From Kiritimatiellia bacterium (GTDB taxonomy: Bacteria > Verrucomicrobiota > Kiritimatiellia > JAAZAB01): a DNA stretch of 43,077 bases. A program made the position numbers and the translations under genes. The notes under the pieces were generated by a model, which worked only from the letters and a program-made list of their open reading frames with translations, had not been told where the DNA came from and did not search any database. This document shows, piece by piece, positions 25,038 through 43,077 of the stretch (position 1 is its first letter; each line of letters begins with the position of its first letter). Location: NCBI GenBank assembly GCA_028715905.1, contig JAQUQV010000017.1, positions 1-43,077 of the forward strand, read 5' to 3'.

Positions 25038-26813
25038 TCATTTTTTTGCCGCGGCCGCGCGCGCGGTCCGTTTCTTCTGAATAAGCTGCTGAACAATGAC
25101 GATGCATTGATTGGCGGACCAGTAAAGAACCAAGGCCGAAGGCATCATGTAAAACATGACGAGCATCACGGCGGGCATGAAAAAAAGCATCATTTTCTGC
25201 TGATTCGGGTCGGTGGCGGGCATTAAAGATTGCTGCCAGGCCTGGCTGACGGCCATGAAAATCGGGAGAATATTCAACGGTATCGGCAGAACATCCGCAA
25301 AAAGTCTTTCCGGGGCGCTCAAATCGGTTACCCAGAGGAACGAGGCAAAGCGCAGTTCAACCGCGCTGCGCAGGACCACAAAGAGGGCGATAAAAACCGG
25401 GATCTGGATCAACATCGGCAGACAACCGCTGACCGGATTGACCTTGTGTTTGCGATAGAGGGCCATGGTTTCTTCCTGCAATTTCTTGGGATTATCCTTG
25501 TGCTTGGCCTTGATTTCCGTCATGAGCGGCTGCAACGCCTGCATCTTTTTCATGCTCTCGGTGCTCTTGTGGGTGAGCGGCCAGAATATGATCCGGATCA
25601 GGATGGTGAGCAGAATAATTGCCGCGCCGTAATTGGGAATAACATTGTAGGTTTTATTGAGCACGGTAAGCAGAAAGCGGCAGACCGGCGACCACATGCC
25701 GAACTCCATGACCTCTTCCTGGTGCAGCCCCAGCGTCCGTAAAATGGAATATTTTTTAGGCCCGACATACAATTTGAAGGTCCGGCATAAAGTCTCGCCG
25801 CCGTTCAGGGTTTTTGCGGATATCACTGCCGCGGCGGACACGTTTTGAATCTCGGCGTTTTTGGGCTTGAGCGCGGGGTTAAGGTCTTCGCCTTCAATAA
25901 CAATGCGTTCCGCCGCCAGGCGGTACCCGGCCGCCCCGCCCTCCGGCACAAGGATCTGGGTGAAAAATTTATTCTTAACGGCTATCCAGTCAACCGGCAT
26001 CTCCTCTTCCTGCTCAATTGTCTTGGGCAGAAAAGACATTTCCTTTTCCTTTTTGAAAGTTTTGAATAATTTTGCCAGTTTGCCCGCCCAGTGGATCACG
26101 CCTTCGCCGCCGCTGGCGGCCAGGGCGTCAATTCCGAGGTAATTCATGCCGCTCATCCGATATTCATGGGGCGGCGCCTGCATGGCGCCGGCCTGAACGG
26201 CATGTTTCGGAATAAGCCGGTCCGCGGCGGCGGTGTTGACAAATAAATCGCGCACTACCGCCTGGTATTGAGAGTTCAGTTCTATGGTCCGCGTCAAGCG
26301 CAGTCCGTCCGCGGTCTTGCTTTCCAAGACAACCGCCGCCGGGCTGTTGCTGACAACCCGAAAATCGTCATCCGCCGAAAATCCGGGCAGATTTTGATAG
26401 GTCAAGGCCGGCCGGCCGGCGAAATCAAGCGCCAGCGGCCCGCTGTCTTTTTCAACTGTCTGGCGGTAATCGGCGAACGTGGCCGAGACAATGCCGCCGC
26501 CCTGCGTGGATATCTCAAGGGAAACTCCGGTATTGGCCAGCGTCAATCGCTGTTCCGGCGTCCGCGCGGCCGGCTTTTTTTCCTGAGGCTGAACCGGCGG
26601 GATTGGTTCGGCCGGGATAACTTGCGCCGCTGTTACGGATGTTGTCGGCGAAAGCGCGGGAACGGGGAAACGAGTTGTTTCCGCCTGCCCGGCCGTTGGA
26701 AGCGTTTTTGCGGGGCCGGTTTCTTCAGGCGCAATCCAGCGCTTATAAAGAAAAGGCCAGGCCATCAAGAGGGCGAACAACACGGCGATAATCAGCAAAT
26801 CCTGTTTTTTCAT
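25038..26813 (-). CDS. yidC: Membrane protein insertase YidC
   Basis: 591 residues, the Gram-negative type. An N-terminal anchor (MKKQDLLIIAVLFALLMAWPFL) is followed by a long Pro-rich linker, a periplasmic P1 beta domain (about 90-350) and the conserved C-terminal insertase core. The core starts near GAAIILLTILIRIIFWPLTHKS, with KMQALQPLMTEIK, NPVSGCLPMLIQIPVFIAL and SANQCIVIVQQLIQKK. It inserts and folds inner-membrane proteins with or without Sec. It follows yidD by 33 bases, the usual gene order. Confidence 0.95.
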   Translation of the reverse strand: MKKQDLLIIAVLFALLMAWPFLYKRWIAPEETGPAKTLPTAGQAETTRFPVPALSPTTSVTAAQVIPAEPIPPVQPQEKKPAARTPEQRLTLANTGVSLEISTQGGGIVSATFADYRQTVEKDSGPLALDFAGRPALTYQNLPGFSADDDFRVVSNSPAAVVLESKTADGLRLTRTIELNSQYQAVVRDLFVNTAAADRLIPKHAVQAGAMQAPPHEYRMSGMNYLGIDALAASGGEGVIHWAGKLAKLFKTFKKEKEMSFLPKTIEQEEEMPVDWIAVKNKFFTQILVPEGGAAGYRLAAERIVIEGEDLNPALKPKNAEIQNVSAAAVISAKTLNGGETLCRTFKLYVGPKKYSILRTLGLHQEEVMEFGMWSPVCRFLLTVLNKTYNVIPNYGAAIILLTILIRIIFWPLTHKSTESMKKMQALQPLMTEIKAKHKDNPKKLQEETMALYRKHKVNPVSGCLPMLIQIPVFIALFVVLRSAVELRFASFLWVTDLSAPERLFADVLPIPLNILPIFMAVSQAWQQSLMPATDPNQQKMMLFFMPAVMLVMFYMMPSALVLYWSANQCIVIVQQLIQKKRTARAAAAKK

Positions 26814-28658: not shown

Positions 28659-29165
28659 TTAAAAATAGCAACGCACGCCCATTTTCATTCCGACGTCATA
28701 ATTCTTGGCCTCGCTGCCGTTGATATAGGCGTCTTCGCTGGCAAGATCATAATATAATTCCGTAAAAATCGCCACTTCCTCCGAGAGAAAGAACTTGGCG
28801 CCGCCGGTGAACTCAAAGTTGATGAAATTTTTGACGTAAAAATCGCCGAAGAAATACTGCAGTTTCAGGCCCACGTACGGCATCATGAAAATTTCCAGGT
28901 CCAGGTTGAATTCTCCGAACCCTCCAATGCCGTAGCCGAACTCCGAACCGTCATAGCCCCAGGCCAGCAGGCCGCCGGCCTCAATGTTATCCAGCACGAA
29001 ATAACCAAGGCCTGTGTCAAAAAGAAAATCAACCTTTCCGTTGGGATTATCAAAGTCCAGGTTGCCCCCCAGTCTCAATTCCAAGGTATCCTGCTGAATC
29101 GGCGTAGCCAAAGCCGACGCCGCAACAAACAATCCCGCAAATAGCGCTGTAATTCTTTTCTTCAT
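28659..29165 (-). CDS. Outer-membrane beta-barrel-like protein
   Basis: 168 residues from the ATG at 29165, which has AAGGAG six bases upstream (a TTG at 29180 is rejected). A signal peptide MKKRITALFAGLFVAASALA with an Ala-x-Ala cleavage site precedes alternating hydrophobic/polar strands rich in Gly, Phe and Tyr, and the chain ends in aromatic CYF, as in outer-membrane barrels. An eight-strand OmpW/OmpX-like fold fits the length. Function unknown. The 147-base gap to yqaA (28512-28658) contains two small palindromes (28574-28587 and 28591-28605) and nothing else recognised. Confidence 0.75.
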   Translation of the reverse strand: MKKRITALFAGLFVAASALATPIQQDTLELRLGGNLDFDNPNGKVDFLFDTGLGYFVLDNIEAGGLLAWGYDGSEFGYGIGGFGEFNLDLEIFMMPYVGLKLQYFFGDFYVKNFINFEFTGGAKFFLSEEVAIFTELYYDLASEDAYINGSEAKNYDVGMKMGVRCYF

Positions 29166-29286
29166 CCTTTTCTCCTTCAAAAATCAATTAAGCTTGTTGT
29201 TTCATCCGCCATGTTTTTTTTTCTGAACAATCGTATATTTAACCGATATCACCTCCCATCAATATTTAACCCGTCCGGGGAACGGA

Positions 29287-29340
29287 TGGTGGTGGGGGAT
29301 GGATTCGAACCATCGAAGTCGTAAGACAACAGATTTACAG
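29287..29340 (-). pseudogene. Truncated tRNA-Tyr (3' part from anticodon loop to CCA)
   Basis: On the minus strand the sequence runs CTGTAAATCTG (anticodon GTA), a long class-II variable arm, T-arm GATGG/CCATC with TTCGAAT, then CCCCACC A CCA. This is the 3' half of a tRNA-Tyr. The 5' acceptor strand GGTGGGG, the D-arm and the 5' strand of the anticodon stem are absent; homology ends at the anticodon loop (29340). Such fragments are left at the far end of elements that integrate into tRNA genes. The AT-richer stretch 29341-29483 has no gene. Confidence 0.75.
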
Positions 29341-29483
29341 CCCCCTCAAATTCCACATATTCCCAATAAATTCAATGACTGTGCCCTCTATTCAAGACAA
29401 ATTGTGCCCTTTTTCGGAACTGGATGCAACAAGGTTTTCTATGTCGCATTGCCGGAAGCTCATTTGCCGTATCATGAATCGGA

Positions 29484-30635
29484 TCATGTCCTGAGTCGGT
29501 TGACGTGGATAACCTTGGCGGGCGGGAAACCGTTGAAGGGGGTGGAGGAAGCCACGCTGTAAGCGCCGATATTTTCGCTGTAAAGCAAATCGCCGCGCTC
29601 AAGATTGCCCGGGAGTTCCTCGGCCATGGCGACCACGTCCAGCGCGTCGCAGGTGGGGCCAAAGACCGTGCAAATCTGTTTTTTGCCCCGTTTAAACGCT
29701 TTCAGGCGATATTGGCAGTGGTCAAAGATGATGCCTGAAAAAGTGTGGTAAACGCCGTCGTCAATGTAATAACAGAGCTTGCCGTTGCGCACGGCCTTGC
29801 CAATGATTTTTGCGACGGCGGTCCCGGCGGTGGCCGCCAGAAATCTGCCCGGCTCGGCCAGAATCTGGATGTTTTTCGGGAAAAGACGCTCAAGTTCGGT
29901 GTTGATGATTTTTGCCAGGTCGCGGAACGGTTTTACGGTCGCGTCGTAGGGCGCGGGAAAACCGCCGCCGATGTCCAGCAAAAACATTTTCGTATAACCG
30001 CGGTCTTTTGCTTCCTTGAAGACGTCGGCCGCAAGGTTGATGGCCTGCACATAGTTTTCAAAGTTGGTGGTCTGGCTACCGACGTGGAAGCTTAATCCCT
30101 CCACGATCAGGCCGGCCCGCTCGGCCGCGAGGATCAGATTCACGGCTTCGCCCGATTCCGCGCCGAATTTTGAGGAAAGCTCAACCATCGCGCCGGTGTT
30201 GGCGACTTTCAGGCGCAGGACGAGGCCGGCGTGCGGGGCATACTTTTTGATTTTTTGTATTTCCTCCGGGTTGTCGTAAGTTACCAGCGCCTTGTATTGA
30301 TCCAGCTCCCGCAGGGTTTCATTGGCTTTGATCGGATGGGCGTAAATGATTTTATCCCAGATCCAGTCCTGGCGCTGTCTGGCCGGCATGTTCCGGATGA
30401 GACTGTAAACGATCTTGAACTCCGGCATGGAGGCCACGTCAAAACTCGCGCCCGCTTCGTAAAGCGTCTTGACGATCGCGGGATCGGGATTAGCTTTGAC
30501 CGCGTAGTAGGCCTGGACGCGCGGCAGATGTTTTTTGAAGGCGGCGTAATTCCGGCGCAAAACATCATGGTCCACCGCGACCAAGGGGGTCCCATGCTTT
30601 TTTGCCAGTTGTTGGAGCTTCCTTAATGTCGCCAT
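29484..30635 (-). CDS. Ornithine/lysine-type PLP decarboxylase (fold type III)
   Basis: 383 residues. YYAVKANP puts the PLP lysine at Lys47; HVGSQ, DIGGGFP and EPGRFLAA bind PLP phosphate and substrate; GPTCDALD gives the catalytic Cys329 and the Asp that binds the substrate distal amine. This matches eukaryotic-type ornithine decarboxylases and bacterial lysine/ornithine decarboxylases for polyamine synthesis; ornithine versus lysine cannot be read off. Start ATG lacks a ribosome site; a -10-like TTAAAT lies seven bases upstream, as for two other genes here. Confidence 0.88.
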   Translation of the reverse strand: MATLRKLQQLAKKHGTPLVAVDHDVLRRNYAAFKKHLPRVQAYYAVKANPDPAIVKTLYEAGASFDVASMPEFKIVYSLIRNMPARQRQDWIWDKIIYAHPIKANETLRELDQYKALVTYDNPEEIQKIKKYAPHAGLVLRLKVANTGAMVELSSKFGAESGEAVNLILAAERAGLIVEGLSFHVGSQTTNFENYVQAINLAADVFKEAKDRGYTKMFLLDIGGGFPAPYDATVKPFRDLAKIINTELERLFPKNIQILAEPGRFLAATAGTAVAKIIGKAVRNGKLCYYIDDGVYHTFSGIIFDHCQYRLKAFKRGKKQICTVFGPTCDALDVVAMAEELPGNLERGDLLYSENIGAYSVASSTPFNGFPPAKVIHVNRLRT

Positions 30636-30642
30636 AAACCCA

Positions 30643-30672
30643 ATTTAAAATCAAAAGTTACCGCTAAGTTAA
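30643..30672 (-). promoter_or_regulatory. Predicted promoter of PLP decarboxylase, leaderless arrangement
   Basis: On the minus strand: TTAACT (30672-30667), 18 bases, TTAAAT (30648-30643), then seven bases to the ATG at 30635. Confidence 0.35.
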
Positions 30673-30702
30673 CGTATAGGAATTTCAATGTTGTCTATTT
30701 TT

Positions 30703-30760: not shown

Positions 30761-30851
30761 TGCGAAAAATAACAGTTGCCGCCTTTTGGCGGCCTTCAGG
30801 TAGTATGAAGGCTCTTCTTATGCCCACTTGCGCATTTTTTTTGCAAAAAAA

Positions 30852-30926
30852 TGGCGCCCCCTACGGGAGTCGAACCCATCTTTCCAGGATGAGAGCCTGA
30901 TGTCCTGTCCGATAGACGAAGGGGGC
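30852..30926 (-). tRNA. tRNA-Glu (anticodon CTC), CCA encoded
   Basis: The minus strand folds into a complete cloverleaf: acceptor GCCCCCT/AGGGGGC, discriminator G, encoded CCA, D-arm TCGTCTATCGGACAGGAC, anticodon stem with loop CTCTCAT (anticodon CTC) and T-arm ATGGG-TTCGACT-CCCGT. It matches tRNA-Glu consensus closely. A run of eight T directly follows the CCA and could end transcription. Confidence 0.93.
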
Positions 30927-31051
30927 GTTTCGTTTTTTCATTTGTAAACCGTATCGGGTAAAGAATAAGAGCAGGCGCAGTCATGTCCAGCAAAATTATT
31001 GCCAAATAACAATTTGATACTCGCCGGCTGGCGCAAGCGCTTGAGGCGGAT

Positions 31052-31290: not shown

Positions 31291-32322
31291 TTACCGCTGG
31301 ACCCGGCCGGAGGCGTCGCCGCCGGAAAGCGCTTCCACTTCCTTCGCCGTTGCGCGGTTGAAATCTCCGGGGATGGAATGTTTCAGACAGCTGGCCGCCA
31401 CCGCGAAGTTGAGCGCGTCTTCCGGAGTTTTGCCGGCAATCAGCGCGTAAATCAGGCCGCCGGCGAACGAATCGCCGCCGCCCACGCGGTCAACTATGTC
31501 CGTGATTTCATACTGCCGGCTGAGAATAAAGTTTTTCCGGTCGTTCAGGCAGGCGGCCCAGCCGTTCTGGTCGGCGCTGTGGCTGGAGCGGAGCGTGATG
31601 GCGATTGATTTGAGATTCGGGAAAGCGCTTAAGACCTTTTCGGTCAGTTCGCGATACATGTCTATGTTGAGTTTGCCTTTTTCAACCTTTACGCCGCTTT
31701 TGATGCCGAGCGATTTCTGGCAGTCTTCCTCATTGGCGATGCCGATGTCAACATGTTTCACGAGGCCGGTCATGATTTCCGGGGCGGTCTTGCCGTATTT
31801 CCATAATTTACCCCGGTAATTAAAATCGCAGGAGACGGTCAGCCCGTTTTGTTTGGCCGCCTTGACCGCTTCCAGCGCGAGATCGGCCGCTGATTGCGAT
31901 ATGGCCGGAGTGATGCCGGTGATGTGAAACCAGTTCGCGCCCGCGAAAGTTTTTTCCCAGTCAATTGCGCCGGGTTTGGCCAGCGCAATTGCGGAGCCCT
32001 CGCGGTCATAGACCACTTTTGATCCCCGTTGGTTGGCGCCGGTTTCCAGGAAATAAATTCCCAGCCGGCCCGCTCCCCGCGCGATTAATGAGGTGTCCAC
32101 GCCGAAACGCCGGAGTTCGGCGATGCAGCTTTCGCCTATCTCGTTCTTGGGGAGAACCGTTACAAAGGCTGCATTGAGGCCGAAATTTGCCAGGGAAACC
32201 GCCACGTTGGCCTCGCCGCCGCCGAAGGTGGCTTCCAGAACCGGCGACTGAAACAACCGTTCAAAACCGGGGGATTTCAGTCTCAGCATAATTTCACCGA
32301 AGGTGATCACTCTATTATTCAT
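31291..32322 (-). CDS. kdgK: 2-dehydro-3-deoxygluconate kinase (PfkB family)
   Basis: 343 residues from the ATG at 32322, chosen because AAAGGA lies nine bases before it; the ATG at 32340 has no such site. The N-terminus TFGEIMLRL and [15 protein letters not shown], and the C-terminal PfkB signature [13 protein letters not shown] with the catalytic Asp, fit KdgK. It phosphorylates KDG to KDPG, the substrate of the aldolase encoded just upstream (53-base gap). Other PfkB sugar kinases cannot be excluded, but the pairing makes this strong. Confidence 0.9.
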
Positions 32323-32375
32323 TATTATTGTTCCTTTCATATTGTATTTGAAACTTCATTGAACGTGCCTTCTTC

Positions 32376-33341
32376 TCACTTCCTTTGCAGCAGATGAATC
32401 GCAAACCCGCCGAATTCACCCTTCAAATACACGGCCCCATAAACGCCGCCGGCGTCTTTTTTGGCCGTGCTCATGTCCACCGCAACGCCCTTGCGTTCCA
32501 GCCAGGCCGCGGCCCGCGTTATGGAATTGGTGGTTACGGCGATATGCCCGTTGGTTCCCAGGCCCTTGCTCTTGTTGATCTCAAATCCCTTGCCGGCAAA
32601 GTTGGAGCTGTTGCCTTCTTTCAGGGCCAGGTTGAACATGGCGCTTAAATTCTTGGCCAACTCCAGGGATGATTCGGACCCGCTCATGTTGATGCCGATA
32701 TGGCCGAGATCAAATCCCAGCATGGCATTGATTGCCTCGCGTGTCAGCCGGGTTACTTCGTCAAATTTGCCGGTTTTGATGAGATCGTCCTTGACCATCC
32801 ATGTTCCGCCGCAGGCGAATACTTTTGGGAACAGAATATATTCGGCCAGGTTCTGGGCGGTGATGCCGCCGGTGGGAATGAATTTGACCGCGCTATAGGG
32901 CGCGCTCATGGCCTTCAGGGTTTTGAGTCCGCCAAAGGCGTCCGCCGGAAAAAATTTAAGCACGTCCACGCCGTGGTCAAGCGCCATCTGGATTTCGGTC
33001 GGGGTGGCAATGCCCGGCGTGACGGGCACTTGGCGCTCAACGCAATATTTCACAACCGCGGAACTGAAGCCCGGGGTAACGATGAATTTTGCCCCGGCTT
33101 TCAGGGCCTTTTCCGCCTGCGCAACATTTATCACCGTGCCGGCGCCCAGCAACACGTCGGGGCATTCCGCGGCGATTGCCTTGATGGCGTCTTCAGCCGC
33201 GGCGGTGCGGAAAGTGATTTCTGCCGCGGGCAGTCCGCCCGCGGCCAGGGCTTTTGCCAGCGGCACGGCGTCTTTGGCGTTATCAATTTTCACGACGGGC
33301 ACAATGCCCATCTCGTTGATTGTTTTCAGTGTATCCTGCAT
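32376..33341 (-). CDS. eda: KDPG/KHG aldolase fused to a VOC-like domain
   Basis: 321 residues, about 110 more than a normal Eda. Residues 1-205 are the trimeric class I aldolase with Glu41 and Arg45 (AEITFRT), GAGTV, VTPGF and Schiff-base Lys129 (DVLKFFPA). Residues about 210-321 form a second domain beginning DLGHIGINM and ending with GAVYLKGEFGGFAIHLLQ, with the strand/helix pattern of vicinal-oxygen-chelate (glyoxalase-like) half-domains. It splits KDPG to pyruvate and glyceraldehyde-3-phosphate. The extra domain's role is unknown. AAAGGA lies before the ATG. Confidence 0.88.
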   Translation of the reverse strand: MQDTLKTINEMGIVPVVKIDNAKDAVPLAKALAAGGLPAAEITFRTAAAEDAIKAIAAECPDVLLGAGTVINVAQAEKALKAGAKFIVTPGFSSAVVKYCVERQVPVTPGIATPTEIQMALDHGVDVLKFFPADAFGGLKTLKAMSAPYSAVKFIPTGGITAQNLAEYILFPKVFACGGTWMVKDDLIKTGKFDEVTRLTREAINAMLGFDLGHIGINMSGSESSLELAKNLSAMFNLALKEGNSSNFAGKGFEINKSKGLGTNGHIAVTTNSITRAAAWLERKGVAVDMSTAKKDAGGVYGAVYLKGEFGGFAIHLLQRK

Positions 33342-33370
33342 GTCTTATCCTTTCTGATTTTATTCAAGAT

Positions 33371-33403
33371 AGGCACAAAGGGGCAAAGGCAGAAGGCGCA
33401 AAG
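33371..33403 (+). repeat. GGCACAAAG repeat, copy A
   Basis: AGGCACAAAG followed by GGCAAAGGCAGAAGGCGCAAAG, a simple purine-rich intergenic repeat. The inverted copy is at 33481-33515 and a further copy at 37416-37442. Confidence 0.6.
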
Positions 33404-33480
33404 TAACGGATAAGAACAAAGCTATCTGAACATTTATCCTCTTGCATTTTCTCATTCTGGTTATTTGCTTCTTTCTCTTT

Positions 33481-33515
33481 CACTTTGTGCCTTTGTGCCT
33501 TCTGCCTTTGTGCCT
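33481..33515 (-). repeat. GGCACAAAG repeat, copy B (inverted)
   Basis: On the minus strand AGGCACAAAGGCAGAAGG followed by CACAAAGGCACAAAGTG. Inverted relative to copy A 78 bases away, so the eda to dehydrogenase gap can fold into a large imperfect hairpin. Confidence 0.6.
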
Positions 33516-33517
33516 TT

Positions 33518-34480
33518 TTATATCATATTCACTGCATATTTTGGTTTCCCGCCGCTCAAGACATCCCGGATGTTTTCCGCGGCCTTGCGTTTTAATTCGC
33601 TCTGGGCCTCTTCCGTGTACCAGCCCGTGTGCCCGGACACGGTTATGTTGTCAAGTTTCAGGAGAGGATTATCGGCGTTGACCGGTTCGGTGGCGAACAC
33701 GTCCAGGCCGGCGCTGTTTATCCAGCGTTCCGAAAGCGCCTTGTGAAGCGCGCGTTCGTCAACGATCGGGCCGCGGGAGGTGTTGATGAGAATAGCGGTC
33801 TTTTTCATTTTTTTGAACGCCTCTTCATTGAACATGCCGCGGGTTTTCTCGTTCAGCGGCATATGAATTGAAAAGAAGTCGCCCTCGCGCAGGGCGGTTT
33901 CAAGGTCAACCTTTTCGGCGCCGGCGGCGCGCACGGCAATTTCATCCAGGAAGGGGTCAAAAACCAGCGTGCGCCCCAATTGAAAGCCGGAGAGTTTGCG
34001 GTGAAAAATGCGGGCGATCTGGCCAAATCCGAAAAAAACAAAGGTTTTGTCCTTGACGCGCCACTGGGGCCCGTCGGCCTGCGTTTGCCAGATGCCCGCC
34101 TTGACCTGTTTGTCGCGCAGGGCCACCTTGCGGACACAGCTCATAAAGAGGGCAAATGCCTGGTCGGAAACGTCCTCGCCGCAGTAGTCCGGCACATTGG
34201 CGACCCAAATGTTTTTTTTCGTGGCGGCCTGCACGTCCACATTGTCGTAGCCGACGCCGTATCTTGAAATAATTTTGCATTTTTTCAGGGCGCCAATCAC
34301 CTTTGCGTTGATCGGCGGCAGGTTGACGATGATGCCGTCGGCGTTTTCACAGGCTTTTGCCAATTCATGCTGGTCGGCGCTTTTGGTAATAGTCGGCGCA
34401 ATGCCGAGGTTTGTCAGGACTTCGTTTTCCTCGTTGTAATGAGGATAACGGTCATCTGCAATAACGACTTTTTGGCTCAT
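33518..34480 (-). CDS. D-isomer-specific 2-hydroxyacid dehydrogenase family protein
   Basis: 320 residues. NAD-binding GFGQIARIF (GxGxxA type), TSRGPIVDE with the conserved Arg/Glu, and SGHTGWYTEEA with the catalytic His, as in CtbP/phosphoglycerate dehydrogenase relatives. A ribosome site AAGGGG precedes the ATG. The substrate is not determined; within this operon, reduction or oxidation of a sugar-derived 2-keto acid is likely. It is 28 bases after the lyase-like gene. Confidence 0.85.
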   Translation of the reverse strand: MSQKVVIADDRYPHYNEENEVLTNLGIAPTITKSADQHELAKACENADGIIVNLPPINAKVIGALKKCKIISRYGVGYDNVDVQAATKKNIWVANVPDYCGEDVSDQAFALFMSCVRKVALRDKQVKAGIWQTQADGPQWRVKDKTFVFFGFGQIARIFHRKLSGFQLGRTLVFDPFLDEIAVRAAGAEKVDLETALREGDFFSIHMPLNEKTRGMFNEEAFKKMKKTAILINTSRGPIVDERALHKALSERWINSAGLDVFATEPVNADNPLLKLDNITVSGHTGWYTEEAQSELKRKAAENIRDVLSGGKPKYAVNMI

Positions 34481-34508
34481 TTTTTCAGCCCCTTCATCAG
34501 TATTTTAC

Positions 34509-36332
34509 TCACGTCAACTCAACCCGCCAGCTGATCTGGCGCTGGTCTGTCCTGAAGCATCCGATCCGATAAATTCCATTGCGGTTGGGAGCGTCAAAAG
34601 GCTCGAGGTATTGTTCCGCAGAACCGGGGCTCAGACATTCTACCCGCAATGAATGTGCGGCGCATTTGACCGTAAATGAGCGCTCTTCCGCATGAATTTG
34701 TGAAGCCGTTCCGCCATTTGTCTTCAGCAGCGGAATCTGGACAAGGGTCTGAACCGCCGAAGCCGGCGGCGATGAGGTTATTTCAACGCCTGAGCCGGTT
34801 ATGCAATATTTTTCGTTCACCATCATGGTCGCTCCGGAATTGATGGTATAGGCTACAGAAAACCGGACCCTTTCCGGGCTTTCAACCAGGTCCGTGAGCT
34901 GAACATCAACAATTTCGCCGGACAAGTCGGAAAGCCAGATCGTTTTGCCATCCCGCGTTATCCAGCCAAGCCCCATGGCAATATTGCGGGGCGAAGCCGG
35001 CTCCGGCACGATATAATTGGGATGCGCCGCAATCGGAATGGATAAGCCCAATTCGGTCGGCGCTCCCTTGCGGTGGATGCGTCCCAATCCGGTGGCGTCA
35101 TAGTGGTGGTCGGCGCGCGTGTCAATTTCAATATGATATCCGCCGCAAGCGGCAAAAATCTTGTGAAAATCTTTCAATAATGGCAGCAGGTATCCGCCGA
35201 TTTCGGCCGGAGCCGGCGACTCCTTGATCGTGTCGTCCGCCAGGAGATGCGCAAAACCGAACTGGCTGGCAATCAGGAGAGAGTAAACGGCATAAAGCCC
35301 GTAACTCCGCTCGCGGCCGTGCTGGGTTTCGGGAGGGAATTCGTTCTTGGTGAAACGCAGCGGAGAAAGATCAAGCCAGCGTTTCACGCTCAAGGCGGCG
35401 AGCCGGGCGGCGCGTTTGAATGCTCCGGCCAGAATCTCGTTGCCCAATTCCTTATATCTGCTCGCCTCATATTCGCAAATTACGCTGATGATTGCCTCGT
35501 TGAAATTCTGTTGATTGCTCCTTCCGCCGAACGGCGCCTCGCCGGTTGACGACAAGTACATCAGGGTTGTCAGGCCGCCCCGCCGCAGCATTTCATCAAA
35601 GAAGGCGGCATGTTTACCCTTGTATCCTGCGGCAAATAAAAGCGAAAGGTTCATGCGGGGGGTCCAATCGTACGTCAAGGGATCATTGGGATCGCGGTAC
35701 ATGCCTAGTTCCGTAAAACGGCGCTTTTGCGTTTCAAGATGCCGCTCGATAAACGGCGTGTTGCAGGAAATGCCAAGCTGCTTTTTCATCTGCTCTCCGG
35801 CTATGGCAAACGTGACAACATTGTAAATATCTTCTGCTTTAGATTTTGAAAGAACGCAGGCATAATTTTTTTCCGGGTCGTATCCGCCAAGTTGCCGCCG
35901 CCATTTCTCCATCCTCGCTTTGTCGGTCTTATCCCGCATTGCAGACAATCCCCTGATAATTTCTTTCGGATAAAAATCCACTCTGCATGTATGCTTCTCG
36001 TAGGGTTGCGCAACCTCTTGGCAAATAGCGTCAAGGCCTCTGGTAAGATTATCGGTCAGGTCCTGGCAACGGCCGTTTTCCACAAGAGCCCCAAGCGCGC
36101 CCACGAAACGCGCCGTGGTAAATGGCAAAAAGATGGTATCGCTCTGCTCGAACGGATCATGGATTCTTCCGTCATTATCCTGGAGAACCACAAGCTGGCG
36201 CACAATGGGTTCGCTTAAGTCCAAATAGAAATCCTTGGTCAAGCCGGTAGGCTGCCAGGCAGCAGGACGCTGTCCATCGGAAAGCATCTGCTCAATTTTT
36301 CCATCAAGCGGATAAGCAACAGCATTGTTCAT
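34509..36332 (-). CDS. Unrecognised large enzyme, toroid plus beta-sandwich look
   Basis: 607 residues from ATG 36332, one base after the oxidoreductase stop; the frame stays open 91 codons upstream, but that part is low-complexity Trp/Pro/Arg and overlaps the other gene. No signal peptide. The first about 400 residues look alpha-helical with conserved-looking aromatic clusters (YDWTPRMNLSLLFAAGY, GEAPFGGRSNQQNFNEA, EIDTRADHHYDATGLGR). The rest is beta-rich. This resembles alpha-toroid polysaccharide lyases/heparinase-like proteins, with His and Tyr residues suited to beta-elimination. Not assigned to a family by sequence. Confidence 0.7.
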   Translation of the reverse strand: MNNAVAYPLDGKIEQMLSDGQRPAAWQPTGLTKDFYLDLSEPIVRQLVVLQDNDGRIHDPFEQSDTIFLPFTTARFVGALGALVENGRCQDLTDNLTRGLDAICQEVAQPYEKHTCRVDFYPKEIIRGLSAMRDKTDKARMEKWRRQLGGYDPEKNYACVLSKSKAEDIYNVVTFAIAGEQMKKQLGISCNTPFIERHLETQKRRFTELGMYRDPNDPLTYDWTPRMNLSLLFAAGYKGKHAAFFDEMLRRGGLTTLMYLSSTGEAPFGGRSNQQNFNEAIISVICEYEASRYKELGNEILAGAFKRAARLAALSVKRWLDLSPLRFTKNEFPPETQHGRERSYGLYAVYSLLIASQFGFAHLLADDTIKESPAPAEIGGYLLPLLKDFHKIFAACGGYHIEIDTRADHHYDATGLGRIHRKGAPTELGLSIPIAAHPNYIVPEPASPRNIAMGLGWITRDGKTIWLSDLSGEIVDVQLTDLVESPERVRFSVAYTINSGATMMVNEKYCITGSGVEITSSPPASAVQTLVQIPLLKTNGGTASQIHAEERSFTVKCAAHSLRVECLSPGSAEQYLEPFDAPNRNGIYRIGCFRTDQRQISWRVELT

Positions 36333-36333
36333 T

Positions 36334-37401
36334 TCATCCCCATCTTCCGCGCACTGCCTTGCCGCCGGCGTTGGCCTTGTACATGGCCTCAATGATTTCC
36401 ACGCAGGCCAGTCCCAATCGGCCGCTGCAGCCGTACATCGGCTCCTTGTCCTCCCGGACGCATTGCACGGCGCACGCCAGTTCGTCCACGTAGCCCAGGT
36501 TGTGAAATTCATCCACGGCCGGCTTTGTCCAGCCGAGGGTGTTGTCGGCCTTTTCAACGGCATAGCCGTAACCGGGGCGGGAATAAACATCCAGGCAGGA
36601 GCCAAGCGTCAGGTCGGCCTTGATGTTTCCGGCAGAACCGTAAATTTCAACCCGGTCTTCCATGCCGCCCACGGTGATGTAATTGCCCTCAATCAGCGCG
36701 TGTTCCCCGCCGGCGAATTTCATGATTGCCACGGAAAAATCCTCGCCGCTGTTCCGCTTGTGGACGTAATTGTCTTTGAGCCCGCCGTTGCATCTGGCAA
36801 AAACCTCCACCACCGGATTTTTGCCGCCTTTGGCCAGCAGGTAAAGCGCCCAGCCGATCGGGTGGATGCCAAGGTGAATAAGGCATCCGCCGCCGCAGGT
36901 TTTCTTGTTTCTGGCAAAGGGACTGTGCGTGCCGTTATGGCATTCCTTGGCCTTGACGTAGAGCGGCCGGCCAATGCCGCCTTCCTTGATGACGGTAACC
37001 GCGCGGTTCAGGGCCGGCGCAAAGCACCAGTCTTCGCCGTAAAATAACTTTACTTCTGCTTTTTTGCAGGCCGCCACCATGGCGCGGGCGTCTTGCGCCT
37101 TTGTGGCCAGGGGTTTTTCGCAAAAGACGTGTTTTCCGGCGCCGGCCGCGGCCAGGACAATGTCGTGGTGCAGGAAATTGGGCGCGCAGACCGAGACAAG
37201 GTCAATATCCTCTTTTGAGAGCATTTCGCGGTAATCCTTATAGACGCGCGGGATTTTCCATTTTTTGGCGAATGGCTCCAGGTTGTCAATGGCTGCCACG
37301 GCCTCCATGGAGACCGCGGGATTGCGGCGGTAGCTGTCGGCGTGGAAATCCGCCGCGAATTTTGAGCCCACGATGCCGACCTTGATTTTGTTGTTCATCA
37401 T
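36334..37401 (-). CDS. Gfo/Idh/MocA family oxidoreductase
   Basis: 355 residues from the ATG pair at 37401/37398; the upstream extension encodes the translated GGCACAAAG repeat and is rejected. VGIVGSKFAADFHADSY is the NAD(P)-binding Rossmann motif, and CEKPLATKAQDA has the EKP signature with its catalytic Lys. These enzymes oxidise or reduce sugar hydroxyls and often serve in uronate, inositol or amino-sugar pathways. Next to the lyase-like gene (one-base gap), so the two are co-translated. Confidence 0.9.
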   Translation of the reverse strand: MMNNKIKVGIVGSKFAADFHADSYRRNPAVSMEAVAAIDNLEPFAKKWKIPRVYKDYREMLSKEDIDLVSVCAPNFLHHDIVLAAAGAGKHVFCEKPLATKAQDARAMVAACKKAEVKLFYGEDWCFAPALNRAVTVIKEGGIGRPLYVKAKECHNGTHSPFARNKKTCGGGCLIHLGIHPIGWALYLLAKGGKNPVVEVFARCNGGLKDNYVHKRNSGEDFSVAIMKFAGGEHALIEGNYITVGGMEDRVEIYGSAGNIKADLTLGSCLDVYSRPGYGYAVEKADNTLGWTKPAVDEFHNLGYVDELACAVQCVREDKEPMYGCSGRLGLACVEIIEAMYKANAGGKAVRGRWG

Positions 37402-37415
37402 ATTTTTTTCTCTGT

Positions 37416-37442
37416 CACTTTGTGCCTTCTGCCTATGTGCCT
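37416..37442 (-). repeat. GGCACAAAG repeat, copy C
   Basis: On the minus strand AGGCACATAGGCAGAAGG followed by CACAAAGTG. It fills the 47-base gap between the double-GNAT gene and the Gfo/Idh gene. Confidence 0.6.
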
Positions 37443-37448
37443 GCTTTC

Positions 37449-38750
37449 TCATCCCTTCTCCGGGCCGGTTATACCCCAGAATTTTTCCTGCAGTTTTTCC
37501 CGTTCATATTCCATGAAAGCGGCGGTTTCAGTGTAATTGAGCGTGGACTTGTAAATCGTTTCGCGGAACGACTTGACCCGCGGCGAGTTTTTTTCCAGGT
37601 TTTCCGCCGCCGCAAACTGTTCAACCAGTTTGTCCGCCTCAGTGTAATGCACAAACTGATACATGCGGGTGAAATCGCGCGCCGGCTTGGCCGTCTTGAT
37701 CAGGCGGTGGCGGCTCGGTTTTTTTTCCTGGTCAAAGACCCGCTCCGCGTAGGCGCCCTTGTCGGCAAACTTGCCCTCGGGGGTGTCAATGAAGGCGGTC
37801 TTGTTGTTTTTATCCTTCATCAAAAATTGAGCGGCGGCAATGACAAGCGCGCGGGCTGTTTCATCGTTGTCGGCGATGAAGGGGCCGACAAACGGGCGGA
37901 TCCGGCCGGGGCGGGTGAAACAATAGCCCTTGATGACGCCGTTGTCGTCCCGGCAAACAAAACAGCCGCCCCCGCTGTCTTTGAAAAGTCCGCGCATGAT
38001 TTCGGCGCGTTCCACGAACGCGGAAGCATCGTAGCGGATGACTTCATTGAGGTCATTTTTCTTCACGGTAAAAACATGGTTGCGGTCATGTTTTTGCCCC
38101 GCAAATTCGGCCAATTCAAAAACCGAACGCCAGATGCGGTAGGAATTGACATACCCGACCGCGCCGTAGACCGTGTTGCCCATGGGGGTGGCGTCGAGGC
38201 CGTTGATGACTTTACCGCTGTCTAGCGCATATTTTACGCAACGTTGCATCATGGCATTGGCAATGCCCTGGCGCCGCGCCTCGGGGTGGACCAGAATCAT
38301 TCCAATCCAGGTCTTGTTGTCCCCGAGCGGCAAGGTAGAACAAGTGCCCAGCGGTATGTCAAAGTTTTTCCCAGTGAGTCTGGCCACAAAAGTGCCGTTT
38401 GGATCAAGATCCACCATGCGGTCAATATCGCGGTCGGTCTGGTTCCAGCCGGCGCGCATGGTCAGGAGGTGCATGACGTCGCGGTATTTTCCTATCTTTT
38501 CAAGGCTGAAAAATTTACCGTTGATTGCCTTGCTGTTTGCCGGCAGATCAACGCGCATTTTTTCCGGCACCCGGACTTTGATCTTTTTTCCGCTGCGGGC
38601 GATGATTTCAATCTCCCGTTCTTCCGCGAAGGGGTCGCCTCTGGGATTGCTCAGCCGGAAACAGCCGTAGAGCGTGTCAACGTATTTGTCCTTGCCTATT
38701 ATAATTTCGTTAACTTGATCTGGATGAGATTTCTTAATCAAAGTCTTCAT
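37449..38750 (-). CDS. Double-domain GNAT acetyltransferase-like protein
   Basis: 433 residues from ATG 38750; the longer open frame upstream overlaps the propeller gene and is rejected. The N-terminal GNAT domain (about 80-200) has IGMILVHPEARRQGIANAMMQRCVKYA, a clear acetyl-CoA loop, and the segment VYGAVGY. A second, YitH-like GNAT domain follows (about 220-330; CFVCRDDNGVIKGYCFTRPG). The last about 100 residues are unusual for a GNAT. The acceptor is unknown; it is encoded in a sugar-acid gene array, so a sugar or a pathway protein is plausible. Confidence 0.75.
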   Translation of the reverse strand: MKTLIKKSHPDQVNEIIIGKDKYVDTLYGCFRLSNPRGDPFAEEREIEIIARSGKKIKVRVPEKMRVDLPANSKAINGKFFSLEKIGKYRDVMHLLTMRAGWNQTDRDIDRMVDLDPNGTFVARLTGKNFDIPLGTCSTLPLGDNKTWIGMILVHPEARRQGIANAMMQRCVKYALDSGKVINGLDATPMGNTVYGAVGYVNSYRIWRSVFELAEFAGQKHDRNHVFTVKKNDLNEVIRYDASAFVERAEIMRGLFKDSGGGCFVCRDDNGVIKGYCFTRPGRIRPFVGPFIADNDETARALVIAAAQFLMKDKNNKTAFIDTPEGKFADKGAYAERVFDQEKKPSRHRLIKTAKPARDFTRMYQFVHYTEADKLVEQFAAAENLEKNSPRVKSFRETIYKSTLNYTETAAFMEYEREKLQEKFWGITGPEKG

Positions 38751-38769
38751 TATTTTTATATTTTGTGGA

Positions 38770-40080
38770 TTACATCCCTGTATAGATGGTTTCATTGTAA
38801 ATGGTCGGAATGGCCAGCGGTCGGCTGTTAGCATAGATGTAAACGCCTGAGACTCCATATAAGACGGCCTCGTCCCGGCTATCTCCCCATATATCCGCCG
38901 CCAGACCGTAATAACCAGCCGGGCCGTAGATATTTGTGATCCAGTCCGGCGCCACCTGCGGCGGGACCGGTCGTAAAGCCAGGGTGTCCGCCACTTCCCC
39001 CTCACCGTTATATACCACCGCCGGCTCGCCGTAGCCGCGGCTATACATCAATATCCCCTGCGGAGAGCCTGGTCCAAACCAGTTGATGGACGTGATTGCC
39101 GCACCCCAACTGCCTTCGGGTTGAACGCGCCGCCATATTTCCCGGCCCTCCAGATCGAACAAGCACAGAGTCGCCGGGGCGCGGCCGCCGGCCGGCAATT
39201 TTTCCCCGCGGTTGAGCGCCGCCACTTGCGTGGAGGAGTCGCCCCGGAAGTGTCCGGTCACCACGTGCTGCGCCTCGCGTAACGGTATTTTCCATAATTC
39301 CCGGCCATCGGTGGTCAGGCAATGCAATCCACCGTTGCCGAAGAGCAGATGCCAGGATCCATCCGGAGTTTTAACGGCGCAAGCGGCATCCTGATGCTGA
39401 TTGCCGGCGTCATGCTGAAAAAGCACCTTGCCGTTGTGATCTATCAGCGCGAACCCGACGAACACCTCATCGCATCCATCGCCATCCACGTCGGCCAGCG
39501 CCGGAAAATGTCCCGTTGAACCTTGATAGCGCCAGAGCACGCGCCCATCGTGCGCGACGCCCCACATGTTCCAGTAGCGGTCCTTGACCACCAGGTCCTC
39601 GCGGCGTCCGCGCCCTGTCAGATCCGCGAACAGAAAACAATCGTCGGCCGGGGCCGGCAAAGGGAGAGTGTCCTTCTGTTGCCCTGTGGCGGCATCCAGA
39701 ATCAGTAGCGTGGCCGAGCCCTCGTAGCGCGCAGCCCGTTCCCGGTGCCATACTTTCGGCTCATGCAGTTCGGCATATACGGCTTGACGAACCAGCAGCA
39801 CTTCGTTCCGGCCGTCGCCGTCCCAATCGTAGATTTGCACCGGCAGGTCGGAATAGATTCGTCCACATGCTTCGGCTGGACATCCCCATTGCCAGAGTCG
39901 CCGCCCCTCAATCGTTAATGCAGTTAAACCGGTGATCGCGCGTGTTTCAAAATGGCTGCGTGCGAAGAGCATGTCCGGCGCGCCATCGCCATTCAGATCG
40001 CCGACGCGCAGTGTGTTGGCGCAAAAATTATTCTTGCCTTCTTCGGTCGCCCCGATGTGCTTTACCAAGTGCATGGTCAT
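38770..40080 (-). CDS. FG-GAP/VCBS beta-propeller protein, rhamnogalacturonan-lyase-like
   Basis: 436 residues of tandem propeller blades with calcium-loop motifs DLNGDGAPDM, DWDGDGRNEV, DVDGDGCDEV and WGDSRDEAV. The ending VYIYANSRPLAIPTIYNETIY resembles the C-terminal part of PL11-type rhamnogalacturonan lyase propellers as I recall them, but no lyase catalytic residues can be named. It has no signal peptide, which is odd for a polysaccharide lyase. It may act on imported oligosaccharides, or be a binding/inactive relative. Overlaps the PreA-like gene by four bases. Confidence 0.7.
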   Translation of the reverse strand: MTMHLVKHIGATEEGKNNFCANTLRVGDLNGDGAPDMLFARSHFETRAITGLTALTIEGRRLWQWGCPAEACGRIYSDLPVQIYDWDGDGRNEVLLVRQAVYAELHEPKVWHRERAARYEGSATLLILDAATGQQKDTLPLPAPADDCFLFADLTGRGRREDLVVKDRYWNMWGVAHDGRVLWRYQGSTGHFPALADVDGDGCDEVFVGFALIDHNGKVLFQHDAGNQHQDAACAVKTPDGSWHLLFGNGGLHCLTTDGRELWKIPLREAQHVVTGHFRGDSSTQVAALNRGEKLPAGGRAPATLCLFDLEGREIWRRVQPEGSWGAAITSINWFGPGSPQGILMYSRGYGEPAVVYNGEGEVADTLALRPVPPQVAPDWITNIYGPAGYYGLAADIWGDSRDEAVLYGVSGVYIYANSRPLAIPTIYNETIYTGM

Positions 40081-41312
40081 GATTTTCTCCTCATATTAAT
40101 TGCCCCTTGCGGACAGATATCCGCGCAGGTTGAACACGCCAGGCATTTTTCCTTTGTGATGCGGCTCTTGCGGTCAATGATTTCAATGGCGTTGCAATGG
40201 CCGATTTTTTCGCACAGCCCGCAGCCGTTGCATTTTTCCAAATCAACCTCGGCGTAACCTGCATGCAGTGTTAGCTTGTCGGCGGGAGTGATTTTCTGCA
40301 TGGCAAGATCGCGGAAATCGCGGTAGCTTTTATAGCCGTGTCTATTCATGAATTCGCTCATTTGTTTAAGCCATTTGGGCAAAAAATCAAAACCGCGCAG
40401 CATGGTCTCGGTGCAGACTCCGAGCAAATCCGCGCCGCACATGATGAATTGAATCGCGTCCCTGGCCGAGGCGATCCCGCCCGTGCCCTGGATGAAGGGG
40501 GTGACGCCCGCTTTTTTACGGATCTCGTAAACGTCCCTGAGCGCAAGCGGCTTTATCCAGGGGCCGGAAAAACAGGCCATGGTGGGCTCGTCCTGAAGGC
40601 GGTAGGGGCCCTGGCTGGTATTTTCAATGTCAAATTCGGCGATGGCCAGACGGTTGGCGACCGAGACCACGCAGTCAATGCCCTTGTCAAAGCAGGCTTT
40701 GGCCACATCGGCGATCCGGCCGCCTTCGGGCGTGATCTTGACAAAGACCGGAATTTTGACCGCCTTTTTCACGGCTTCCGCGATTGTGCTGACGATGACG
40801 GCGTTCTGGCCCATGCTGGCGCCGGTCTGAGCCGTATTCTTTGCCTCTTTTTCAGAAAGGGCCACGTTGAAGGACATATTGGGGCAGCACATGTTGAGCT
40901 CAATGGCATGCGCGCCGGCCGCTTGGGCTTTTTTGGCCATGTCCTCCCAGCCGGTTGCGCTTTTGCCTACATAGGTAATGTTGGCAAAGAGCACAAGATC
41001 GCGCGTTGCCTTGCGCCCTTCCTCAATCAATTTCAGGCACTGGTCAAAAGTCAGGCGTTTTTCAGCGGTAAAGGCGTGATATTTTTCTTTGCCAAACCAG
41101 CGGTAGCGGGGCGGGAGACTGATGTAAGGCTCCGGGTCAAAGGCCAGTTTCAAGCTGGCGCCGGCCCAGCCTGATTCTTCGGCCAGGATCAGTTGCTCCT
41201 TCAATTTGACGGTGGGGCCGGAGGCCACGATGAAGTTATTGCGGAATTTCAGATTGCCGACGGTCAGCGATAGTTTCCCGTCATCCTGATGTTTTTGCGG
41301 TGTTTTTTTCAT
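40077..41312 (-). CDS. Dihydropyrimidine-dehydrogenase-like flavoprotein with ferredoxin tail (PreA-like)
   Basis: 411 residues. The N-terminus KLSLTVGNLKFRNNFIVASGPTV and ELNMCCPNMSF followed by KITPEGG resemble the FMN/pyrimidine TIM barrel of the DHOD/PreA family. The C-terminus has two 4Fe-4S motifs, CNGCGLCEKIGHC and CLACSTCADICP. It probably reduces or oxidises a ring or enone using an electron partner; a pyrimidine is not assured in this operon. GGAGG (41329-41333) sits 16 bases before this ATG but seven bases before an in-frame ATT, so an ATT start is possible. Confidence 0.8.
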   Translation of the reverse strand: MKKTPQKHQDDGKLSLTVGNLKFRNNFIVASGPTVKLKEQLILAEESGWAGASLKLAFDPEPYISLPPRYRWFGKEKYHAFTAEKRLTFDQCLKLIEEGRKATRDLVLFANITYVGKSATGWEDMAKKAQAAGAHAIELNMCCPNMSFNVALSEKEAKNTAQTGASMGQNAVIVSTIAEAVKKAVKIPVFVKITPEGGRIADVAKACFDKGIDCVVSVANRLAIAEFDIENTSQGPYRLQDEPTMACFSGPWIKPLALRDVYEIRKKAGVTPFIQGTGGIASARDAIQFIMCGADLLGVCTETMLRGFDFLPKWLKQMSEFMNRHGYKSYRDFRDLAMQKITPADKLTLHAGYAEVDLEKCNGCGLCEKIGHCNAIEIIDRKSRITKEKCLACSTCADICPQGAINMRRKS

Positions 41313-41364
41313 GGCATCAATCGTGTATCCTCCGGGCGGACATTTCCTTTTTGAGGCGATTTCT

Positions 41365-41370
41365 ATCATA
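41365..41370 (-). promoter_or_regulatory. Predicted -10 box of the sugar-acid operon
   Basis: TATGAT on the minus strand. The -35 region (41388-41393, CGCGGT) is poor and abuts the first 10-base direct repeat, as expected for an activator-dependent promoter. Confidence 0.4.
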
Positions 41371-41391
41371 ATGGCGGGATGTAATCCACCG

Positions 41392-41422
41392 CGATTTGCG
41401 AATATTTTTTCCCGATTTGCGA
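41392..41422. promoter_or_regulatory. Direct-repeat operator, CGATTTGCGA x2, 21 bp apart
   Basis: CGATTTGCGA at 41392-41401 is repeated identically at 41413-41422, a spacing of two helical turns, so both face the same side of the DNA. It lies 80-110 bases upstream of the PreA-like gene and touches the -35 region. The pattern resembles AraC-family activator sites; the regulator is not in the window. Confidence 0.5.
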
Positions 41423-41530
41423 CATGGGAAATCAAAACAAAAATGCGTCCGGCCGGGTGGATTATGGAAAACCGTCTTTCTGCGAAAGTCAGGTTGTTGC
41501 CGCTATTGCGCGTTCAGGCATGAGATTTTT

Positions 41531-41632
41531 CCGCCTACTGAGGACAATCTTGCCGCAAAAAAGCATAAAATTACGTAGGAGCCGAACCCCTGTTCGGCGA
41601 TGCATGTTTTATCGTCCGGAATCGCCGCATGG
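41531..41632. repeat. GTAGGAGCCG palindromic repeat, copy lacking right end
   Basis: Leader from 41531 (CCGCCTACTGAGGACAA, TTGCCGCAAAAAAGC) and core GTAGGAGCCGAACCCCTGTTC from 41575 match the copy at 31052-31197 and stop within GCCGCATGG at about 41632, so the right arm is lost. It lies in the 342-base gap 41313-41654, which otherwise holds only the control region. Confidence 0.7.
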
Positions 41633-41654
41633 TTCATTTTCTGGTATATATTGT

Positions 41655-42920
41655 TTATCGGAAGCCGCAAATAGTTCCGCTGTAAATGCATTCATAGGCG
41701 CCCATGTCCACCCGGCCGTAGCGGAGGCGCGCCGTGCCATCCAAATCAACCGAATTTGTCATCCAGTCCCGGTTTATGCCCGCGTTGACGCAGGGCGAGC
41801 CGGCCTTGAGGCGCCAATCGCCGGCGGCCTTATTCGCGAATTGGGGGTCGGATTCAATGTTGTTAACGCTGCCGGCGAGGATGGCCGATGAGTTCGTCGG
41901 AAAAACACAGCAGTTTGTGAAAATACCCCCGGCGCCCTCTATGGAATGAAGATTCTTGAAATGGTTGTCATAGATCACGCAGTTTTCAACCGTTGCCGTC
42001 TTGCCAACAGTAAAATACATTCCCCCGCCAACGTTACTATTCGCACAATAATTGCTTACGATCGTGCTGTTCTTTATCCAATACCCGCTTTCGTTAATCG
42101 TAACCGAGGCTAAATTACCGCTATTGACGGCAATCAGGCAATTGGCCAAATTACAATTCTGCACTCCGCCCGCGCCGGAAACAGAGGCGTTGTTGACCAC
42201 GGCACAGTTGGACAATACGGAATACCCCACCATAGAGCCACCGCCGCTGTTGTTTGAAATCGTGCAGTTGACGGCATTGCCATGATAGATTATTACGCCG
42301 CGCGCGGCGACGCTGTTATTGCCGTTGTTATTTTTGACGATCGTATTGCACATTGTGCCGTAATACACCCCGGCTCCATAGTAATACGCGGCATTGCCGG
42401 CAATCACGCAATTTGAGATTACAGGAGGAATACCCGGACTTGTGGACGGGCAATAAATCCCGCCGCCGTTACCGTCGGCGGATGAACTGACGCGCGTTGC
42501 GCCGTTCGTAATCGTGAAACCGATCAGCGTGCCCGCGGACATGTAGACGCACCGGACAGAATCAAGCCCGTTCGTCTGGCCGTTGGACGCCCACGCCCCC
42601 TTGATCGCGGTAACGGACGCGCCGTTCACGCTGGTAACCGTAATGGCGGAAGTAATTACCAGGCGATTGGTCAGAAGCGTGCCGGTTGGATAATTGGTTA
42701 GCCCGCCGGCCTCGTACACCCCGTTGCTCACCAGAACCGTATCCCCCTCCGTGGCCGCGTCCGCCGCCCACTGGATATTGCTGGCGGCGTTTTCCCAGCT
42801 CGTGTAGGGCTCAACGCTGAGCATGTTCGTGGCCGCGTAATGCGTGTCGCCGGAACACGCGCAAATGCCGAAAAAACATATCAACAAAACCGCGGTCAGG
42901 CCGATCAGATAATGTTTCAT
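41655..42920 (-). CDS. Secreted right-handed beta-helix protein, choice-of-anchor-Q-like
   Basis: 421 residues from ATG 42920, with a G-run ribosome site just before it. A signal peptide ends near LLICFFGICAC; the ICAC and following GDTHYAA suggest a lipobox, so a lipoprotein is possible. The body has many short Asn/Gly/Val-rich helix coils (NCVIAGNAAYYYGAG, SNCAVVNNAS). The C-terminal DPQFANKAAGDWRLKAGSPCVNAG and DLDGTARLRYGRVDMGAYE is the Q-type end motif common in surface proteins of Planctomycetes/Verrucomicrobia. It ends ten residues later without a sorting tail. Carbohydrate binding or lyase function is possible but unproved. Confidence 0.75.
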   Translation of the reverse strand: MKHYLIGLTAVLLICFFGICACSGDTHYAATNMLSVEPYTSWENAASNIQWAADAATEGDTVLVSNGVYEAGGLTNYPTGTLLTNRLVITSAITVTSVNGASVTAIKGAWASNGQTNGLDSVRCVYMSAGTLIGFTITNGATRVSSSADGNGGGIYCPSTSPGIPPVISNCVIAGNAAYYYGAGVYYGTMCNTIVKNNNGNNSVAARGVIIYHGNAVNCTISNNSGGGSMVGYSVLSNCAVVNNASVSGAGGVQNCNLANCLIAVNSGNLASVTINESGYWIKNSTIVSNYCANSNVGGGMYFTVGKTATVENCVIYDNHFKNLHSIEGAGGIFTNCCVFPTNSSAILAGSVNNIESDPQFANKAAGDWRLKAGSPCVNAGINRDWMTNSVDLDGTARLRYGRVDMGAYECIYSGTICGFR

Positions 42921-42946
42921 GATTGTATCCCCTTTTTGCCCTGATT

Positions 42947-42965
42947 TTGCGCGATTTCCGCGCAA
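42947..42965. other. Perfect hairpin between beta-helix gene and upstream gene
   Basis: TTGCGCG and CGCGCAA pair around ATTTC. It sits 11 bases from the stop of the upstream gene; without a U-tract it may be a weak terminator or an mRNA end protector. Confidence 0.4.
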
Positions 42966-42975
42966 TATTCGGATT

Positions 42976-43077
42976 TCAATTTGTTTGAAACTCAATAATC
43001 CTGATGCCGCCCGGCGGAACCGTGATTTCAAGCTCCGCGCCGTCCCGGGTGGTTTGCGCCTCTATCTCCCTGTTTTC
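42976..43077 (-). CDS. C-terminal tail of a protein cut by the right window edge
   Basis: The minus-strand frame gives 33 residues, the last 20 being AELEITVPPGGIRIIEFQTN and then TGA at 42976-42978. A final beta-strand of this kind (EITVPPGGIRIIEF) is common at the C-terminal beta-sandwich of glycoside hydrolases, but that is only suggestive. It reads in the same direction as the beta-helix gene, so the array continues beyond the window. Confidence 0.6.
   Translation of the reverse strand, partial: ENREIEAQTTRDGAELEITVPPGGIRIIEFQTN

Follow-up and report, generated by a model that had tools for sequence, protein, structure and literature searches.

In the account given with Islander (Hudson, Lau and Williams 2014, PMC4383910), the integrase of a genomic island splits its target tDNA, and the displaced fragment marks the far end of the element. 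According to that account, a 3′ tDNA fragment is located downstream of the intact gene; 3′ fragments were counted in 3760 of 3919 islands, the 5′ type in 159 of 3919, and 2083 were anticodon-centred. Footprints of this kind are already well known, and the locus described here leaves knowledge of the mechanism unchanged. A literature search returned no report on tRNA-associated genomic islands in Kiritimatiellota, and the locus is likely a mobile-DNA junction beside rnpA-yidC in this poorly studied phylum, representing one end of a possible island.

The stretch analysed (hereafter the window) is the complete contig C17 of a Kiritimatiellia bacterium, 43,077 nucleotides long and ending at position 43077, from an assembly of 2.67 Mb in 141 contigs. 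On its minus strand, the 54 bases at 29287-29340 correspond to nt 32-76 of tRNA-Tyr, a span that opens with the first anticodon-loop base and closes with CCA, and read CTGTAAATCTGTTGTCTTACGACTTCGATGGTTCGAATCCATCCCCCACCACCA. The reverse complement of 29287-29340 opens with the loop CTGTAAA, containing the anticodon GTA, so that the whole anticodon loop is present, together with the variable arm, the T arm, the 3′ strand of the acceptor and an encoded CCA. The variable arm has a paired stem (GTC/GAC), the T arm is perfect (GATGG-TTCGAAT-CCATC), and the acceptor strand CCCCACC is followed by A and then by CCA. Compared with the 3′ 54 nt of the intact tRNA-Tyr genes called by ARAGORN in relatives of the same family, identity amounts to 51/54 for G005, 51/54 for G007 and 49/54 for G008, confirming the identification in an earlier note on this DNA as the 3′ half of tRNA-Tyr ending at the anticodon loop. 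Of the three mismatches with G005 and G007, two compensate each other within a single variable-stem pair, which is G-C in those relatives and T-A in the window, and pairing of the stem is thereby retained. When the G005 54-mer was compared without gaps to both strands of a 400 kb background taken from the genome of the window, no position matched at more than 31/54; given the 49-51/54 found in relatives, a chance match is ruled out. With its stems paired and its CCA intact, the fragment is without visible decay.

ARAGORN and Rfam at gathering score report a single tRNA in the window, tRNA-Glu(ctc) at 30852-30926. A permissive Rfam scan of 29200-29450 reported no tRNA; it gave a sub-threshold match to RF04351 on the opposite strand (22.6 bits, gathering 68). 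As the intact tRNA-Tyr of G005 also matches RF04351 (22.9 bits), this match reflects the tRNA sequence itself. There is no 5′ half ahead of the fragment, and the sole minus-strand GGTGGGG in the window, at 42231, is not continued as a tRNA. A split or intron-bearing tRNA was considered and rejected, since a matching 5′ half is absent both upstream in the window and in the assembly and the fragment keeps the whole loop. Split-tRNA halves are divided at 37/38, unlike the complete loop found here.

We consider it most probable (roughly 0.6) that an element of the anticodon-loop class integrated into a tRNA-Tyr gene and left the fragment, the displaced 3′ end of that gene, at its distal junction, with the element to the right of the fragment and the 54 bases as the proposed att core. 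A tyrosine integrase would have recombined the att core of the element with the tRNA-Tyr gene; the resident 5′ half would have been completed with a 3′ half brought by the element, keeping one tRNA-Tyr intact, while the original 3′ half would have been displaced to the far end of the element. This far end would abut the resident omp-rnpA-yidC block. With its start at 29341, the element would continue to the right beyond 43077, making the DNA right of 29341 putative element DNA, and the intact tRNA-Tyr and the integrase would fall in an assembly gap.

Evidence for an integration scar, as proposed in the earlier note, comes from the break at the loop, from the lack of visible decay and from two further repeats of tRNA halves in this genome, one with an integrase between its copies; the intact tRNA-Tyr that the proposal predicted was not found in the assembly. 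The placement of the element to the right by orientation, claimed in the same note, agrees with the configuration rule for 3′ tDNA fragments as set out in the Islander account (PMC4383910). As in the anticodon-loop islands described there, the displaced tDNA fragment has its boundary at the anticodon loop (nt 32-76) and extends to the 3′ end, and its orientation puts the element upstream of the fragment. The type of fragment agrees with the published statistics, in which 3′ and anticodon-centred fragments were counted (PMC4383910). In contrast to those islands, the available sequence shows neither an intact target gene nor an integrase of the element nor its second boundary.

The two other half-tRNA repeats were first seen as two weak hits of a genome-wide tRNA covariance search, which gave 44 matches above cut-off. 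On C53, a 47-bp copy of the 3′ half of tRNA-Gly(gcc), 100% identical and beginning 3 nt ahead of the anticodon loop, lies 2.3 kb downstream of the intact gene at 615 and shares its orientation. This cassette (C53:615-3009) shares with the tRNA-Tyr fragment the exact 3′-half repeat, the break in the anticodon arm and the orientation, but it has its intact gene, is only 2.3 kb long and contains an ATPase_2/DUF234 gene, with no integrase seen. The second repeat involves an intact tRNA-Leu(taa) gene on the minus strand of C2 (82662-82745), whose 5′ half together with upstream DNA is present as a 336-bp direct repeat of 99.4% identity. The copies, at 82704-83039 and 101250-101585, are 18.5 kb apart, and an integrase gene (C2:83431-83940) lies between them. 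This element (C2:82662-101585) resembles the tRNA-Tyr case in its anticodon-arm break and direct repeat, but differs in its rarer 5′ fragment type, in the presence of an integrase and in its 336-bp repeat.

A survey of 601 kb of the genome (overlaps included) with the tRNAs located in those 601 kb yielded four partial matches of at least 40 nt at 100%: the Gly half, the Leu half, a contig overlap and a cut stretch. The last two were rejected as scars. The 44-nt 3′ half of tRNA-Arg(tcg) at the end of C50 belongs to a 127-bp overlap with C94, which has the intact gene, and the 40-nt half of tRNA-Pro(ggg) comes from an intact gene that runs past the edge of the analysed stretch. The Gly, Leu and Tyr cases suggest that anticodon-loop integration recurs in this genome.

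To the left of the fragment lies conserved chromosomal DNA, consisting of the resident genes yidC (25038..26813), rnpA (27082-27498) and omp (28659..29180), all on the minus strand, and a VTT-domain gene on the plus strand (27864-28511). The omp gene encodes an outer-membrane beta-barrel-like protein with a Pfam match below cut-off. A yidC search matched nine of the ten family genomes, own included. Four relatives (G005, G006, G007 and G009) have an omp orthologue beside yidC, 52-59% identical and adjoining rnpA-yidC, the contig of G007 ending inside omp. No omp was found in the examined yidC stretches of G001, G002, G003 and G008, G003 having the VTT gene without omp. For the four named loci with an omp relative, the labels of the source MAGs are Kiritimatiellaeota (2), Kiritimatiellae (1) and Verrucomicrobia (1). 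An alignment of the omp leaders of the window's own genome (G000), G005, G006 and G009 shows conservation ending about 30 bp short of the fragment: in the junction zone (29247..29286, minus strand), the leader word GGAGGTGATAT at 29247-29257 is conserved, after which similarity to relatives is unclear until the fragment begins. No tRNA was found upstream of omp in the examined stretches of G005, G006 and G009, and tRNA-Tyr did not adjoin omp in the examined stretches of relatives. An empty site, with an intact tDNA joined directly to the left flank, was not found in these stretches; none of the 58 genomes searched is of the same genus. Beyond omp, G005 has a sugar isomerase-like gene, a polysaccharide deacetylase gene and an alpha-L-rhamnosidase gene, and G006 has three large genes with no Pfam match.

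On the right, the fragment is followed by a spacer of 143 bp (29341..29483), the proposed end of the element, for which the assembly holds no second copy beyond matches of at most 24 bases. The word TGTGCCC occurs in the spacer just outside the fragment, at 29380 and 29403, 23 bp apart. In 400 kb of background the word is uncommon, with 33 single occurrences and one pair spaced no more than 40 bp apart, the word having been picked after being seen, and a pair of this type was absent beside the other tRNA elements examined. The two words are possible integrase arm sites, a post hoc lead.

Past the spacer, the first gene of the proposed element (29484..30635, minus strand) encodes a PLP-dependent decarboxylase-like protein of the Orn/DAP/Arg decarboxylase fold. 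Some members of the family and of the class share it, and it is 83-85% identical to the five family copies. In a tree it falls in a supported set of eight (98/97) with rows from its own family, f1, and from family f16; it is therefore a lineage gene and does not indicate foreign origin. The stretches around its relatives in G002 and G005-G008, 4 to 20 kb in length, gave one other match to a window protein, at 22% to the GFO/IDH protein. At 16 loci around decarboxylase relatives, tRNA-Tyr was present in none and another tRNA in two.

Between the fragment and the gene array further to the right lies the complete, low-scoring tRNA-Glu(ctc) (30852..30926, minus strand; 50.4 bits; ARAGORN, Rfam), a second and divergent tRNA-Glu with 87% identity over 53 nt to tRNA-Glu(ttc). 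The sugar-acid array itself, the possible cargo, occupies 31291..43031 on the minus strand and comprises PfkB/KDG-kinase-like, KDPG aldolase, 2-hydroxyacid dehydrogenase, GFO/IDH, GNAT, RGL11-like, DHO_dh-like and choice-of-anchor Q genes. The GC content of 29341-43077 is 0.545, which ranks at the 12th percentile when 60 background chunks, each 6.5 kb long, are taken as reference, and its tetranucleotide distance lies at the 60th and 87th percentile of the 60 chunks. The right side is within the compositional range of the genome and not clearly foreign, so that composition does not mark it as an acquired island. Genes of the array were not found beside the orthologous omp in the examined stretches of relatives. 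Neither composition nor the tree of the decarboxylase gene adjoining the fragment lends positive support to the suggestion that the sugar-acid array is part of an acquired island. Two weak matches (28% and 38%) between the tRNA-Tyr stretch of G007 and the window proteins at 36334-37452 and 41655-43031 were read as broad-family matches.

These observations bear on an explanation that accepts the fragment as a genuine att footprint and supposes that the element has since been lost or broken by rearrangement, leaving the decarboxylase gene, tRNA-Glu and the array as resident DNA of the lineage. The affinities of the first right-hand gene, the unremarkable composition and the fact that DNA beyond omp varies within the family in any case, as seen in G005 and G006, are all in line with this. 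However, the undecayed state of the fragment, with its paired stems and CCA, suggests a recent event, and islands can carry lineage genes too. We regard this explanation as unlikely, although it deserves to be taken seriously.

The tRNA-Tyr genes of relatives were compared as well. A pattern for half of tRNA-Tyr found matches in 21 of 58 genomes, a count that includes the window's own genome as well as G005-G008. The comparison of neighbourhoods is based on the four relatives G005-G008, five of the ten family genomes having given no tRNA-Tyr half match. Three of the four (G005, G006 and G007) have tRNA-Tyr after an SLT transglycosylase gene; the conserved upstream region of these three consists of the SLT gene and then an exo/endonuclease-phosphatase gene. 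Nothing downstream of tRNA-Tyr is common to G005 and G007. The SLT gene of G005, used as query in a search without positive control, found no match in the assembly of the window.

Extra half copies of tRNA-Tyr occur in two of these relatives. G005 has two 3′-half copies after the intact gene, in 62-bp steps with 12 bp between units (L093:9909-10210); a structured insert breaks the T loop of the second, whose parts BLAST lists apart. In the region of G008 concerned (L095 about 9380-10330), one 3′-half copy with a related T-loop insert lies about 0.5 kb downstream of the intact tRNA-Tyr, and the upstream tRNA-Tyr copy is broken after CTGT in the anticodon loop (CTGT/AAA) by a 30-bp double palindrome. 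The T-loop insert, roughly 90 bp long, is a dispersed repeat, since G008 also has it away from tRNA parts (80% over 91 bases). No extra half copy was found in G007, and the contig of G006 ends inside the gene. The copies in G005 and G008 concern the same tRNA as the fragment in the window and have their breakpoint in the same loop. They differ in lying beside the intact gene, in being tandem or interrupted by structured inserts and in their start: the extra 3′-half copies downstream of the intact genes (two in G005, one in G008) start at AAATCTG, the fragment at CTGTAAA.

Two further origins have to be weighed. The 3′ half may have been copied to omp without a site-specific integrase, by tandem duplication or by repeat-mediated or illegitimate rearrangement. 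That some half copies arise without a visible element is evident from the 62-bp tandem units of G005 and the 30-bp insert of G008, and tRNA-Tyr was not seen adjoining omp in relatives; the break at the loop, on the other hand, is as in integrase cores, and the Gly and Leu cases of the same genome resemble island ends, even though the Gly cassette is without integrase. Such an origin seems distinctly improbable to us. Alternatively, the tRNA-Tyr anticodon loop of the family could be a recurrent breakpoint at which half genes undergo repeated copying or interruption, partly through small palindromic units free of integrase that strike the loop (the 30-bp insert of G008, the 62-bp units of G005), with the fragment as a far-travelled product and not an ordinary island end, a proposal that we regard as very doubtful.

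The displaced-end reading with an element to the right requires an intact tRNA-Tyr gene. ARAGORN anticodons of the tRNA matches in the genome leave tRNA-Tyr and tRNA-Phe without a gene. Patterns for the tRNA-Tyr halves were run on the assembly with up to three mismatches: the 3′-half patterns found the fragment as the only copy, and the 5′-half pattern gave zero matches across the assembly. The check laid out in the earlier note, a search for an intact tRNA-Tyr sharing the 54 bases, accordingly came back empty by covariance search and half patterns alike, and the contig stops at 43077. Most likely, this essential gene lies in an assembly gap; such gaps are likely because tRNA-Phe is missing as well as tRNA-Tyr. 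The two ends of the window showed no overlap with the other stretches and contig ends compared from the same genome. For contigs numbered C43 and above, this comparison reached the ends of a minority, and for some larger contigs it included a single end.

Contig ends of this assembly overlap by exactly 127 bp, as seen in three measured pairs and in eight distinct pairs among 94 pieces compared, indicating that it was made with 127-mers. We infer that a 54-bp repeat is too short to produce a false join alone in such an assembly. This argues against a chimera in which a tRNA-Tyr end was joined to unrelated DNA, as do the lineage genes on both sides of the fragment; the draft state of the assembly, with its 141 contigs, and the missing parent tRNA would suit a chimera, which we nevertheless hold to be hardly credible. 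Three breaks with 127-bp overlaps, C57/C16, C30/C39 and C50/C94, lie in or beside tRNA genes (Met, Gly-tcc and Arg-tcg, respectively), and two of the three also adjoin integrase genes. Breaks at tRNA genes may reflect strain variation at integration sites.

The window contains neither an integrase other than a XerC-like recombinase nor the right boundary of the element. The recombinase gene (7753-8751) adjoins dprA and scores 307 against TIGR02224, for which the family cut-off is 335; it is probably a housekeeping gene rather than an island integrase. The genome has seven PF00589 matches: the XerC of the window, a top-scoring copy on C73 that is probably Xer as well, and five others. No more than 0.8 kb separates the integrase on C57 from tRNA-Met and the one on C60 from tRNA-Arg(cct), and a contig-end integrase piece on C50 adjoins tRNA-Arg(tcg). 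The genome-wide tRNA search reported no tRNA on C72, where an integrase of the phrog_1 type is found near an AbiEii-like nucleotidyltransferase gene (L136:65-949 and 1387-2556). C72 also carries a gene resembling uracil-DNA glycosylase, named by eye.
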